A DNA stretch of 34,243 bases from a virus. A program made the position numbers and the translations under genes. The notes beneath the pieces were generated by a model. That model was not told the origin of the DNA. It was given only the letters and a program-made list of their open reading frames with translations, and made no database searches. The stretch is from the IMG/VR virus record IMGVR_UViG_3300044301_002938, positions 1 to 34,243 of that record; one strand, written 5' to 3'. Position 1 is the stretch's first letter, and each line of letters begins with the position of its first letter. Shown here piece after piece: positions 690-16,351 of the stretch.

Positions 690-1238
690 TTATTTGTTCC
701 TTTTTATAGTTGTTTTATTTCCAACAAAAATGTTGAAAAGTTCCGTTGGCATTTCTTTACCTGCCTCAATACGCTCACGGACTAACGCTTTAAGAGTCAT
801 GGGTTCAACCTTCAACTTTTGTGTTGGTTGATACCCACGCTCTTGTGCAAGAGCAGCATAATCAGCTGCCTTGTTATCTTCGTTGCGACCAAAGGACACG
901 GATATCTCATTTTTGATTATATCCCCTAGTCCATTCTCACGAAGCCAGTTAAACGCCGCATCTCTATTTGCTATAGTAATGTTGGCGCTATAATTTGGTT
1001 TAACATCTACCGAAGAGCCATCTACAAGTTTAAGATGAGATAAACCCATCTCACTCATCATAGTTGGAATAACTTCTCCTGATAAATGTTCATGTTTTTT
1101 CTTTAATTGTTTCAAGTGTTCTTCATGATTTTCTATATTTCTTGAAACCTCTTCTAAGTTTTCTACTTGATCAGCTAAAGATTTAATATCTTCTGTTTTT
1201 TGTAAAACATTTGCTTTATCCTCTTCAAAATTAATCAT
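690..1238 (-). CDS. Coiled-coil phage protein, possibly Gam-like
   Basis: 182 aa. Residues about 5-55 form a heptad-rich, charged coiled coil; the rest is a compact alpha/beta domain with the segments GLSHLKLVDGSSVDVKP and LKVEPMTLKALVRER. An N-terminal coiled coil followed by a small domain recalls host-nuclease inhibitors of the Gam type, but the similarity is structural and weak; I see no diagnostic residue. The start overlaps the stop of the 131-aa gene by 8 nt, and an AAGGAAAAA stretch precedes the ATG. It is followed after 2 nt by the partial gene at the left edge, so the three minus-strand genes form one transcription unit reading leftward from the divergent promoter at 1629-1661. Confidence 0.8.
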   Translation of the reverse strand: MINFEEDKANVLQKTEDIKSLADQVENLEEVSRNIENHEEHLKQLKKKHEHLSGEVIPTMMSEMGLSHLKLVDGSSVDVKPNYSANITIANRDAAFNWLRENGLGDIIKNEISVSFGRNEDNKAADYAALAQERGYQPTQKLKVEPMTLKALVRERIEAGKEMPTELFNIFVGNKTTIKRNK

Positions 1239-1626
1239 CTATTTTTCCTTTCTCATATAAGTTAATTTCAATAGGATAATAGGTTCTTTCTTGTTTATCC
1301 CATTTTAAAAGTTTATAATTACCATTGGTCATTTCTGATACAATAGAACATGCAACCCCAATAATAGCTGGGTCACCTGTTAATAATAAAAAATCTTTCT
1401 TTCTAAAATTTTTTAAACCTTGTCTTAATTTATAAATTAAAGGACCTGGTGAAAAAATAATTTGAGAAAGCTCCGGTAATAAAAATTTAAAACCACCATA
1501 TTGTGCAGCACCCATAATATTTATTTTAGGATTGCCTACTTTTGTACCAGGAATTTCCTGAATAACATAAACTATGGACGGTTGTTTATCATCCATGACT
1601 GTTGTTTTATTATCTATAACTTTCAT
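1231..1626 (-). CDS. Unrecognised protein, first gene left of divergent promoter
   Basis: 131 aa if started at ATG 1626. The frame also has ATGs at 1644 and 1635, but those lie inside the palindromic promoter, and one at 1596; none has a good Shine-Dalgarno. If the promoter is used as drawn, transcription would begin at about 1626, giving a leaderless or nearly leaderless message. The protein is mixed alpha/beta with a hydrophobic stretch FLLLTGDPAIIGVACSIV and no motif that I recognise. It overlaps the following coiled-coil gene by 8 nt. Function unknown; location suggests early or DNA-metabolism expression. Confidence 0.7.
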   Translation of the reverse strand: MKVIDNKTTVMDDKQPSIVYVIQEIPGTKVGNPKINIMGAAQYGGFKFLLPELSQIIFSPGPLIYKLRQGLKNFRKKDFLLLTGDPAIIGVACSIVSEMTNGNYKLLKWDKQERTYYPIEINLYEKGKIDD

Positions 1627-1628
1627 GC

Positions 1629-1661
1629 TTGACATATAGTGCATTAGGAACTATATGTCAA
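1629..1661. promoter_or_regulatory. Symmetric divergent promoter / operator palindrome
   Basis: Two perfect 12-bp inverted arms, TTGACATATAGT (1629-1640) and ACTATATGTCAA (1650-1661), flank a 9-bp spacer. Each arm carries a consensus -35 hexamer TTGACA and the opposite arm supplies the -10-like TATATG at exactly 17 bp, on both strands: plus -35 1629-1634 with -10 1652-1657; minus -35 1661-1656 with -10 1638-1633. It sits between the only plus-strand gene (helicase, start 1683) and the leftward genes. The palindrome could also be a dimeric repressor site. The sequence match is seen directly; activity is inferred. Confidence 0.7.
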
Positions 1662-1682
1662 TACATAGAAAGAAGAAAAATT

Positions 1683-3113
1683 ATGAAATATAAATTTAAA
1701 ACAAAACCCTACGCGCATCAAATAACTGCGTTAGAAAAATCGTGGAACAGAGAAACGTATGCCTATTTTATGGAAATGGGTACTGGTAAAACAAAAGTAT
1801 TAATAGACAATGCTGCAATGCTTTATGATAAAGGTAAGATAAATGGACTTTTAATCGTTGCACCTAAAGGTGTGGTAGGAACGTGGTATAATCACGAGCT
1901 TCCAACTCATTTACCAAATCACATAGAGAATATGACGATATTATGGCAAGCAAATATCACAAAAAAACAAAAAGAAATTTTAGATAACCTATTTAAGGCT
2001 GGGGAAGATTTAAGAATTTTAGTTATGAATGTAGAGGCCCTTTCTACAGAAAAAGGTTATGATTATGCCTTTAAATTTTTACATGCTCATAATGCGTTAG
2101 TGGCAATTGATGAATCCACTACAATAAAAAATCCATCAGCAAAAAGAACTAAAAATATTATTAAATTATCTAATGTGGCTAAATATAAACGCATTATGAC
2201 AGGTTCTCCTGTTACTAAAAATCCTTTAGATTTATATAGTCAGTGTGAGTTTTTAAATCCTTATCTTCTGGACTTTACTTCTTATTATGCATTTAGAAAT
2301 AGATACGCTCAAATGAAAACTATTCATGTTCAAGGGAGGTCTATTCAAGTGGTAGATAAATTTCAAAATTTAGGAGAACTTTCAGACACTTTAAAAAATT
2401 TCTCTTATAGAGTATTAAAAGAAGATTGTTTAGATTTGCCTGATAAAATTTATATTAAAAGACAAATTACGTTGTCTCCCGACCAGAAAAAATTATATGA
2501 GCAAATGAGGAAAGAAGCTTTAGCTGTTTTAAATGGTAAAAAAGTTACAACTGTTAATGCTCTTACTCAGCTAATGAGATTACATCAAATCACATGTGGT
2601 CATTTTACCGCCGATGATGGAACTATTCAAAGAATCCCTAATAATAGAATTAGTGAATTAATGAGTGTATTGGAAGAAACAGAAGGAAAAGCTATTATAT
2701 GGGCTCACTACCAATGGGACATAAAAGATATAATTAAAGAAGTTGTTAAGGTCCATGGTCCGGGTTCCATTGTTGATTATTATGGACTCACGCCCCAAGA
2801 TGAAAGACAAAAGAATATTAAGAAATTTCAAAATAATGATAAATGTAGATTTATTGTGGGAACACCTCAGACAGGTGGCTACGGTATAACGCTTACCGCA
2901 GCCAACACTGTAATCTATTACTCTAATGGCTATGATTTAGAGAAAAGATTGCAATCTGAAGATCGGGCGCATCGAATAGGTCAAAAGAAAGCAGTAACAT
3001 ATGTTGATATTAATGCTGAAGAAACCGTTGATGAAAAAATTGTTAAATCTCTACGTAAGAAAATTAATATAGCCTCTGAAGTTTTAGGTGAAGAGCTTAA
3101 GTCTTGGATTTAA
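1683..3113 (+). CDS. SNF2-family DEAD/DEAH-type helicase
   Basis: 476 aa from ATG 1683; a TTG at 1629 in the same frame would translate the palindromic promoter and is rejected. Superfamily 2, SNF2/Rad54-like ATPase. Seen: Q-motif-like YAHQ (10-13), Walker A MGTGKT (32-37), DEST as Walker B (143-146), motif III TGSP (173-176), and in the second RecA-like domain VGTPQTGGYGITLTAA (motif V) and QSEDRAHRIGQ (motif VI, about 424-434), the SNF2 hallmark. Length is near minimal for two RecA lobes with no extra domain. Such phage helicases are thought to translocate on duplex DNA in replication or recombination; the exact role is unknown. It is the only gene on the plus strand here and converges with hsp20, leaving 51 nt without a clear terminator. 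A weak purine-rich AGAAAGAAG serves as ribosome site. Confidence 0.95.
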   Translation: MKYKFKTKPYAHQITALEKSWNRETYAYFMEMGTGKTKVLIDNAAMLYDKGKINGLLIVAPKGVVGTWYNHELPTHLPNHIENMTILWQANITKKQKEILDNLFKAGEDLRILVMNVEALSTEKGYDYAFKFLHAHNALVAIDESTTIKNPSAKRTKNIIKLSNVAKYKRIMTGSPVTKNPLDLYSQCEFLNPYLLDFTSYYAFRNRYAQMKTIHVQGRSIQVVDKFQNLGELSDTLKNFSYRVLKEDCLDLPDKIYIKRQITLSPDQKKLYEQMRKEALAVLNGKKVTTVNALTQLMRLHQITCGHFTADDGTIQRIPNNRISELMSVLEETEGKAIIWAHYQWDIKDIIKEVVKVHGPGSIVDYYGLTPQDERQKNIKKFQNNDKCRFIVGTPQTGGYGITLTAANTVIYYSNGYDLEKRLQSEDRAHRIGQKKAVTYVDINAEETVDEKIVKSLRKKINIASEVLGEELKSWI

Positions 3114-3164: not shown

Positions 3165-3572
3165 TTATTTTATATTTATTTTCTTCGGCTTCTTATCTTC
3201 TGGTGGATTATAATTTAATTCCACTTTCAACATTCCATCTTCAAGTTTAGCTCCTGTGCATTCAACATATTCAGACAGTTGTAGCTTTCTTTGGAAAGCC
3301 CGTTTAGCTACGCCTTTATGGACAAAGTCTTCTTTTTCTTCAGAAGATTTTCCTTCAATAGATAAAATACCTTCTTGAACTTCAACATTTATATCTGATT
3401 TTTTATAACCAGCTAATGCCATCTCTAAGATGTACTTATCTTTACCAGCTTTCTTTATATTATAATGAGGAAAGCCTGCGTTTATAGTTGGTAGACGATG
3501 AAATCTTTCAAAGAAATCTTCGAAACCAATATAGTTGGGTAGGAAATTGTTTAAATTTATTAGATCAGTCAT
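3165..3572 (-). CDS. hsp20: Small heat-shock protein (Hsp20, alpha-crystallin family)
   Basis: 135 aa. The alpha-crystallin domain spans about residues 38-125: DKYILEMALAGYKKSDINVEV, then the family signature GILSIEGKSSEEKED, then RAFQRKLQLSE and a beta-rich C-terminus, ending with an I-x-I-like KKINIK anchor that normally docks on a neighbouring subunit. The N-terminal arm is hydrophobic (NFLPNYIGFEDFFERF), as needed for client binding. It is an ATP-independent holdase. The start is fixed by a strong AAGGAGGT 6 nt upstream. It has its own promoter in the gap after the endolysin gene and ends convergent with the helicase. Hsp20 genes recur in marine cyanophages and related viruses; here it could protect virion or host proteins during infection (inference). 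Confidence 0.96.
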   Translation of the reverse strand: MTDLINLNNFLPNYIGFEDFFERFHRLPTINAGFPHYNIKKAGKDKYILEMALAGYKKSDINVEVQEGILSIEGKSSEEKEDFVHKGVAKRAFQRKLQLSEYVECTGAKLEDGMLKVELNYNPPEDKKPKKINIK

Positions 3573-3660: not shown

Positions 3661-4155
3661 CTACTTTACGTAACGATCAGTCGACAGTCCTAGGATTGGT
3701 TTGTATTCCGTTTTCCCACTAGAATTTTTAATGGCCATTAAATACTCTTTTCTATTACTATTTATTTCTTTCTTATAACTTACGTGGACCCAGCCCGAAT
3801 TGGGTTGGCCCGGTTCAAAGTACTCGAGGATCAATTGATCAAACATAAGATTTTCTTTGATCCAGTCGCTGACTTCATTGTTAGGGGTGCCAAATATTTC
3901 AAAATCAGCCGCCTCTCCTTTGCAGTGCTGACTATTGCGTGAACTACCTATCTTTTGTGACAAAATTTCGTTGCGATAGCCCGAGGTAATAGTGACTACG
4001 TGGTTAAAATGGTCTCTAATGGGCTGTAGGACCCTTTCACAGAGCAATCTAAGGTTCTCCTGCTCATCCTCACTAGGGTTATTGTCAAGGCCCATCCTTG
4101 TAGCTGTTTGGGATTTGGTCAATTCTGCTAAGCTAAAATTTTTAGATAATTTCAT
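3661..4155 (-). CDS. Peptidase M15-family endolysin
   Basis: 164 aa, D-Ala-D-Ala carboxypeptidase / L,D-endopeptidase-like fold (Peptidase_M15_3 type) that cuts peptidoglycan peptide cross-links at lysis. Zinc ligands and catalytic residues visible: SGYR (58-61), SQH with His77, GEAADF with Asp84, and GWVHVSY with His124. The N-terminal segment FSLAELTKSQTATRMGLDN is the usual lead-in of this family. Length is complete. No signal peptide is seen, so export would rely on a holin; the membrane protein at 31367-31750 is a candidate. The ATG overlaps the stop of the 1475-aa gene as TAATG, with GGGAGA upstream. It is the last gene of the long leftward block before the hsp20 promoter. Confidence 0.93.
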   Translation of the reverse strand: MKLSKNFSLAELTKSQTATRMGLDNNPSEDEQENLRLLCERVLQPIRDHFNHVVTITSGYRNEILSQKIGSSRNSQHCKGEAADFEIFGTPNNEVSDWIKENLMFDQLILEYFEPGQPNSGWVHVSYKKEINSNRKEYLMAIKNSSGKTEYKPILGLSTDRYVK

Positions 4156-15809: not shown

Positions 15810-16351
15810 TTTTGCATTCCTAATAATTCTCTCTTATCTTTTAAAAAATCCTGAAAATTACCTTCCTTATTAACATAATGTAAAAATACATATGAAGAAT
15901 AATCTCCTTTTAATTCATCTCTCCAATGTTCTACTTCTTGTCCTAAATATAGAGCTGCTTCTCCTGGTTTTAAATAAATAGGAGTTCCATTCATATAAAT
16001 AGGCCATTGCTCTCCATCATTATCTATACAAACCGTTACACTTATTTCACAGGATGGTCTATCCTTATGTTTTTTTAACTTAGAAAATCTAGTATATAAT
16101 CTAAAAAAACTATAGGTAGGTAATAAGGTTAAGCCGGATTCTTTTTCTACAAGTTTTTGTTTTTGAAGCATTAAAGAATCAAATAGAGGATCACCATATA
16201 AAGTAAAATTAGGTTCTTCGGATACTTCATCCATATCCGGAGCATTAATATTTAATCTATGTCTTATCATTGCATAATCTTTTATTAACATTCTTTCTTC
16301 TATAGTTAGAAAATTATCTATTTTTGTAAATTTAAAATCTTTACCTATCAT
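15806..16351 (-). CDS. 2OG-Fe(II) oxygenase-like protein
   Basis: 181 aa from ATG 16351, chosen because it gives an ATGA 4-nt overlap with the preceding oxygenase; ATG 16360 is an alternative and neither has a Shine-Dalgarno. Fold evidence: YTRFSKLKKHKDRPSCEISV carries an H-x-D iron motif (His95, Asp97) at the start of the double-stranded beta helix, followed by strands VTVCIDND and PIYMNGTPIYLKPG, and a distal GQEVEHWRDEL with His142. The usual 2OG-binding Arg/Lys near the distal strand is plausible at Arg144 or Lys148 but not certain. Likely hydroxylates a protein or small-molecule substrate; substrate unknown. Second of two adjacent oxygenases in the virion block. Confidence 0.82.
   Translation of the reverse strand: MIGKDFKFTKIDNFLTIEERMLIKDYAMIRHRLNINAPDMDEVSEEPNFTLYGDPLFDSLMLQKQKLVEKESGLTLLPTYSFFRLYTRFSKLKKHKDRPSCEISVTVCIDNDGEQWPIYMNGTPIYLKPGEAALYLGQEVEHWRDELKGDYSSYVFLHYVNKEGNFQDFLKDKRELLGMQK

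Follow-up and report, generated by a model that had tools for sequence, protein, structure and literature searches.

A conserved dyad in marine phages interpreted as two overlapping divergent promoters, with a predicted leaderless message

In phage lambda, the cI message made from PRM is leaderless and starts at its AUG beside a divergent promoter, as is predicted here for the leftward message of a virus record; PR and PRM lie next to each other without being superimposed, and CI/Cro operators control them. A superimposed arrangement has been reported for the Bacillus subtilis plasmid pLS20, in which the -10/-35 boxes of Pr, the favoured promoter, are the -35/-10 boxes of Pc and RNA polymerase cannot bind both (PMC4207663). 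Studies by Warman, Grainger and colleagues have further indicated that symmetric sequences let RNA polymerase start on either strand (PMC12825309, PMC10268837).

The window analysed here is the whole 34,243-bp virus record IMGVR_UViG_3300044301_002938 (IMG/VR). Upstream of its SNF2-type helicase gene lies a 33-bp dyad composed of TTGACATATAGT (1629-1640), GCATTAGGA (1641-1649) and ACTATATGTCAA (1650-1661), whose 12-bp arms are 100% complementary with nine bases between them. Based on the results of our comparative analysis, we propose with good confidence that this dyad represents two overlapping divergent sigma70-type promoters and that the leftward message is leaderless. Judged by sequence, the same type of design is present in over a hundred related phages and at a second site. 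No earlier report describing the element came up in our literature search for promoters or leaderless messages of this phage group. The features of the locus are as follows.

1231..1626, minus strand: Pam3 gp32-like gene, the first of the leftward operon (Pfam PF23992, E 7.9e-31)
1620..1624, minus strand: GAAAG, part of ATGAAAG, where the leftward message would begin (leaderless sides with GAAAG: 60/60 and 54/54; control ORFs: 13/336)
1624..1626, minus strand: ATG of the leftward gene, predicted +1 of a leaderless message (6 nt from its own -10; 6-8 nt in 104/122 unique sites)
1629..1661, no strand: 33-bp dyad with both overlapping candidate promoters (exact 12-bp arms; TTGAC..GTCAA in 76/79 relatives)
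1629..1634, plus strand: candidate -35 TTGACA of the rightward (helicase) promoter (sequence; kept in relatives)
1633..1638, minus strand: candidate -10 TATATG of the leftward promoter, spacer 17 (sequence; 2-bp overlap with the rightward -35)
1652..1657, plus strand: candidate -10 TATATG of the rightward promoter, spacer 17 (sequence; TATA at 24-27 from TTGAC across length classes)
1656..1661, minus strand: candidate -35 TTGACA of the leftward promoter (sequence; kept in relatives)
1667..1675, plus strand: AGAAAGAAG, which probably acts as Shine-Dalgarno of the rightward message and holds the conserved GAAAG near the start of that message (sequence; relatives)
1683..3113, plus strand: SNF2-type helicase gene, which the rightward promoter would serve (PF00176/PF00271; PHROG 62)

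An earlier note on this DNA had described a perfect palindrome that reads TTGACA-N17-TATATG both ways; the exact arms and both hexamer pairs were confirmed in the window. A -35 and a -10 hexamer separated by 16-18 bp are found on both strands inside one footprint, in the window and, by length class, in the relatives. TATATG matches TATAAT at only 4/6 positions, and a consensus promoter scanner did not list the site at 1629-1661, because it requires a T at position 6 of the -10. The palindromy by itself is only mildly unusual: in dinucleotide shuffles, perfect 12-bp inverted repeats with a loop of up to 20 occurred at a mean of 0.07 per window, and 5 of 100 shuffles held at least one. The case therefore rests on conservation and position, and it is the conservation that shows the dyad to be no chance feature.

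In the proposed mechanism, host RNA polymerase would read both promoters, presumably with sigma70. Each arm would provide the -35 of one promoter, overlapping the -10 of the other by 1-2 bp, and because the promoters overlap, the polymerase would be expected to engage only one orientation at a time. Leftward initiation would fall on the A of the first gene's ATG and give a leaderless message for the replication operon, whereas the rightward transcript would carry a leader of ~20 nt in which AGAAAG would serve as the Shine-Dalgarno of the helicase gene. We infer the start sites, the host sigma70 use and the mutual exclusion, together with any timing, benefit or regulatory consequence of the arrangement. 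Among named phages, the nearest relatives found were Pelagibacter phage HTVC027P and phage 023Pt_psg01. The first of these has been described as a lytic phage; it has no RNA polymerase gene and reportedly depends on the host enzyme.

To the left of the dyad lie Pam3 gp32-, gp33- and gp34-like genes, and in complete relatives this leftward block runs on into primase, helicase and DNA polymerase; to the right lies the SNF2-type helicase with its ATG at 1683. The structural genes at 3-34 kb point towards the helicase on its far side from the dyad. They converge on it, out of reach of the leftward promoter. The coupling with the leftward genes that the earlier note had suggested would concern the genes left of 1626 (the replication block in relatives) and not the structural genes. 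Past the helicase, on the opposite strand, the window also carries an Hsp20-type small heat-shock gene (3165-3572) and an M15 peptidase of endolysin type (3661-4155).

For the comparison we used 80 helicase relatives from IMG/VR, of which L057 was left out owing to too little upstream sequence. In a search that required TTGAC and GTCAA by design, the TTGAC..GTCAA dyad was found upstream of the helicase in 76 of the 79 relatives with readable upstream sequence, whose helicases are 71-87% identical. Of the remaining three, L011 and L014 have the helicase immediately behind another gene, and L080 has ATCAA. The earlier note had also asked whether close relatives that preserve the gene order lose the palindrome: where the gene order is kept the dyad is kept, and it is absent where the helicase stands directly behind another gene (L011, L014, L229, L236). 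The exact full-arm pattern gave zero matches in a scan of viral contigs, and the letters of the arms vary.

With the window counted, the dyad is 33 bp long in 22 cases, 34 in 32, 35 in one, 36 in one, 37 in 14 and 38 in seven; lengths of 33-34 and 37-38 are common, and 35-36 are almost missing. A generic E. coli -10 weight matrix was dropped, as it gave shifting offsets in AT-rich repeats, and positional frequencies were used instead. Counted from TTGAC, these place TATA at positions 24-27 of either strand in the 33-, 34- and 35-38-bp classes alike, as a majority and not an invariant feature. On a helicase tree of 74 rows the promoter-type labels change 26 times (minimum 7), a count that promoter recombination could inflate. 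The length of the dyad thus switched repeatedly across the tree while the -35/-10 spacing holds. Beyond the hexamers, the complementarity of the inner pairs is not above that of shuffled columns and in the 37-bp class is often below it.

These observations bear on the suggestion, also made in the earlier note, that the palindrome is primarily a repressor or activator operator and the genetic switch of this phage, with promoter likeness being secondary. The perfect palindrome of the window and the near-absolute conservation of TTGAC/GTCAA would suit an operator, and pLS20 combines overlapping divergent promoters with operators in a switch. However, the arm spacing shifts repeatedly within 33-38 bp and not in whole helical turns, and inner complementarity is at the shuffled expectation except at the -35/-10 hexamers; on this inner-pair test the operator was rejected as the main explanation. 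Because the length varies, the spacing on each strand is fixed and no extra inner symmetry is seen, two overlapping sigma70 promoters fit the data and an operator of fixed spacing does not. A lysis/lysogeny-type switch with an adjacent repressor gene and operators is not supported either, since none of the adjacent genes tested (Pam3 gp32/33/34-like, SNF2 helicase) belongs to a repressor or other regulator family, the dyad has no symmetry beyond the hexamers, and the cultured HTVC027P is described as lytic. We therefore regard the operator or switch as very unlikely. Two points do weigh against the two-promoter interpretation: the -10 of the 33-bp class, TATATG, is a weak match, and TTGAC is kept almost without exception, which is stricter than sigma70 promoters usually need. 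This near-absolute retention could reflect a second protein reading the site.

On the leftward side, ATG 1626 starts 6 nt past the -10, which places the predicted +1 on its A. With the ATG at or within 1-2 nt of the predicted +1, the message is leaderless by prediction. Among 122 unique main-locus sites pooled from the helicase and gp32 searches (114 near sites), the distance between the leftward ATG and its own -10 is 7 nt at 77 and falls within 6-8 nt at 104. The ATG is tied in position to that element, with a spread of 0.98 nt from its own -10 vs 2.02 nt from the dyad edge: when the dyad lengthens from 34 to 37 bp, the ATG shifts from 2 nt outside to overlapping the edge (GTCAATG), and its distance to the -10 is unchanged. 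The leftward ORF of the window is also readable from ATG 1644, but at 45 of the relatives' 60 sites the counterpart of ATG 1626 has an in-frame stop ahead of it. Since the -10 and the ATG keep a distance of 6-8 nt in 104/122, a leaderless or nearly leaderless leftward message is predicted to be conserved. The proposal of a leaderless minus-strand message beginning with ATG 1626 accordingly gains support from both the distance to the -10 and the upstream stops. In L002 and L076, the edge ATG is missing and a later ATG behind a GAAAG sequence is used, which reads as a natural change from a leaderless to a leadered message.

A further conserved element is GAAAG, which all leaderless main-locus sides carry within their first 14 nt (60/60 and 54/54), as against 13/336 control ORFs. 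It is kept in two different reading frames, and because the enrichment extends across both, it is probably retained for the nucleic acid. GAAAG on the helicase side resembles a Shine-Dalgarno and in some relatives abuts the ATG. Judging from the two frames and its presence even where it abuts the ATG, it appears to be not only a Shine-Dalgarno.

The larger relatives have a second TTGAC..GTCAA dyad at the terminase small-subunit gene (L090-L094, L095-L173). In a search with the terminase small-subunit protein, 77 of 80 loci had the dyad with ORF starts on both sides, all of them 34 bp long. The start codons lie 1-3 nt from both dyad edges, and the distance from -10 to ATG is 6-8 nt on both sides in all but one of 22 unique dyads, so that leaderless messages would be made in both directions. 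At least 120 stretches of viral contigs matched the pattern CAT-NN-TTGAC-N24-GTCAA-NN-ATG, and 74 of the 80 examined, among the matches listed, also had TATA-like elements and open ORFs in both directions. In bacterial genomes, this two-sided pattern was found in scattered taxa, and none of the 80 matches examined there combined it with such ORFs and TATA elements. In HTVC027P (MN698241 15768-15982), TTGAT..ATCAA lies in the 38-bp gap between gp30 and gp31 (15945-15982) with ATGs 2-3 nt away; the gp30 gene at this two-sided dyad reportedly codes for ArfA and peaks in expression both early and late. At L090:2047-2082, an 11-codon ORF (MKDGRGELKCL) begins from the dyad edge, resembles the start of the relatives' longer first genes and is possibly a relic or a leader peptide.

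It is extremely unlikely that the dyad is a replication origin or a packaging or structural (cruciform) signal. The palindrome adjoins the helicase gene, and in HTVC027P and 023Pt_psg01 the helicase/gp32-like pair, with the same gap, is at the record junction, which would be in line with such a role; however, record junctions may merely follow gene starts. Moreover, the conserved positions are the -35/-10 hexamers while the length of the centre is free, the inner arms are not kept complementary, and the design recurs at an unrelated gene pair.

The HTVC027P clade has a different geometry in the helicase/gp01 gap (L174-L253; ends of MN698241), TTGACT-N17-TATATA-N16-AGTAAA, with one TATATA between two -35 boxes. 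The spacer is 17 in 38 of 44 unique sites, the opposite -35 is TTTACT in most, and the shared -10 mostly has CTTTC 6-7 nt away on one side and GAAAG 7-8 nt away on the other. By sequence, this gap would be a bidirectional promoter of the shared -10 type with short leaders on both sides. L246, which stands beside this clade on the helicase tree, retains the dyad of the window type.

The two sites and two geometries also bear on whether promoter activity is confined to a single direction, with the symmetry of the other strand as a by-product of the likeness between -35 and -10 sequences. TATATG is a weak -10 both ways in the window, and opposite-strand activity of symmetric promoters is common and often non-coding (PMC12825309, PMC10268837), as this explanation would expect. 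Against it, TTGAC-N17-TATA stays on both strands as the dyad length changes, the gaps between the two starts are too small for another promoter of either flanking gene, the two-sided design is repeated at the terminase locus, and the HTVC027P clade is symmetric too, via its different geometry. We consider a single working direction unlikely and retain the two overlapping promoters as the best explanation.

In a broader view, to which we give about an even chance, a large family of SAR11-type marine phages places start codons inside symmetric superimposed promoters, one site being leaderless on one side and another on both, and two geometries (-10s overlapping or abutting the other's -35, or a shared TATATA) replaced each other; two-way firing would then be apparently selected, because the replacement took place at the same gene pair. 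If this is so, a single element of 33-38 bp links divergent blocks of genes in very abundant ocean phages, which rely on leaderless translation for the leading gene of the replication operon and also for the terminase small-subunit gene at the second locus. The exact start-site predictions are testable in cultured HTVC027P on Pelagibacter HTCC1062, for which a directional RNA-seq dataset of the phage exists (PRJNA1253180), and the relatives provide a natural comparative series for the evolution of overlapping promoters and leaderless starts.

Among the known systems, the nearest precedent is Pc/Pr of pLS20, in which the -10/-35 of each promoter is likewise superimposed on the -35/-10 of the other; the overlapping arrangement is thus already known. 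Pc and Pr differ greatly in strength and are under Rco and DNA looping (PMC4207663), whereas the phage dyad has two similar hexamer pairs and a leftward ATG that coincides with the predicted start, with no regulator seen. The divergent promoters of EcoRV-type restriction-modification systems also have overlapping polymerase sites, but they are under C protein control and, as the study states, the C transcript of EcoRV is not leaderless (PMC5333194). The type described by Warman, Grainger and colleagues is matched, by sequence, in the HTVC027P clade, with its self-complementary TATATA between two -35 boxes; the window type has two -10s and predicted starts ~38 bp apart, outside their 7-25 bp definition. 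Several features of the phages are unusual: the two promoters are nearly identical, the ATG forms part of the promoter's edge, one version would be leaderless on both sides, and the design is widespread in marine phages.
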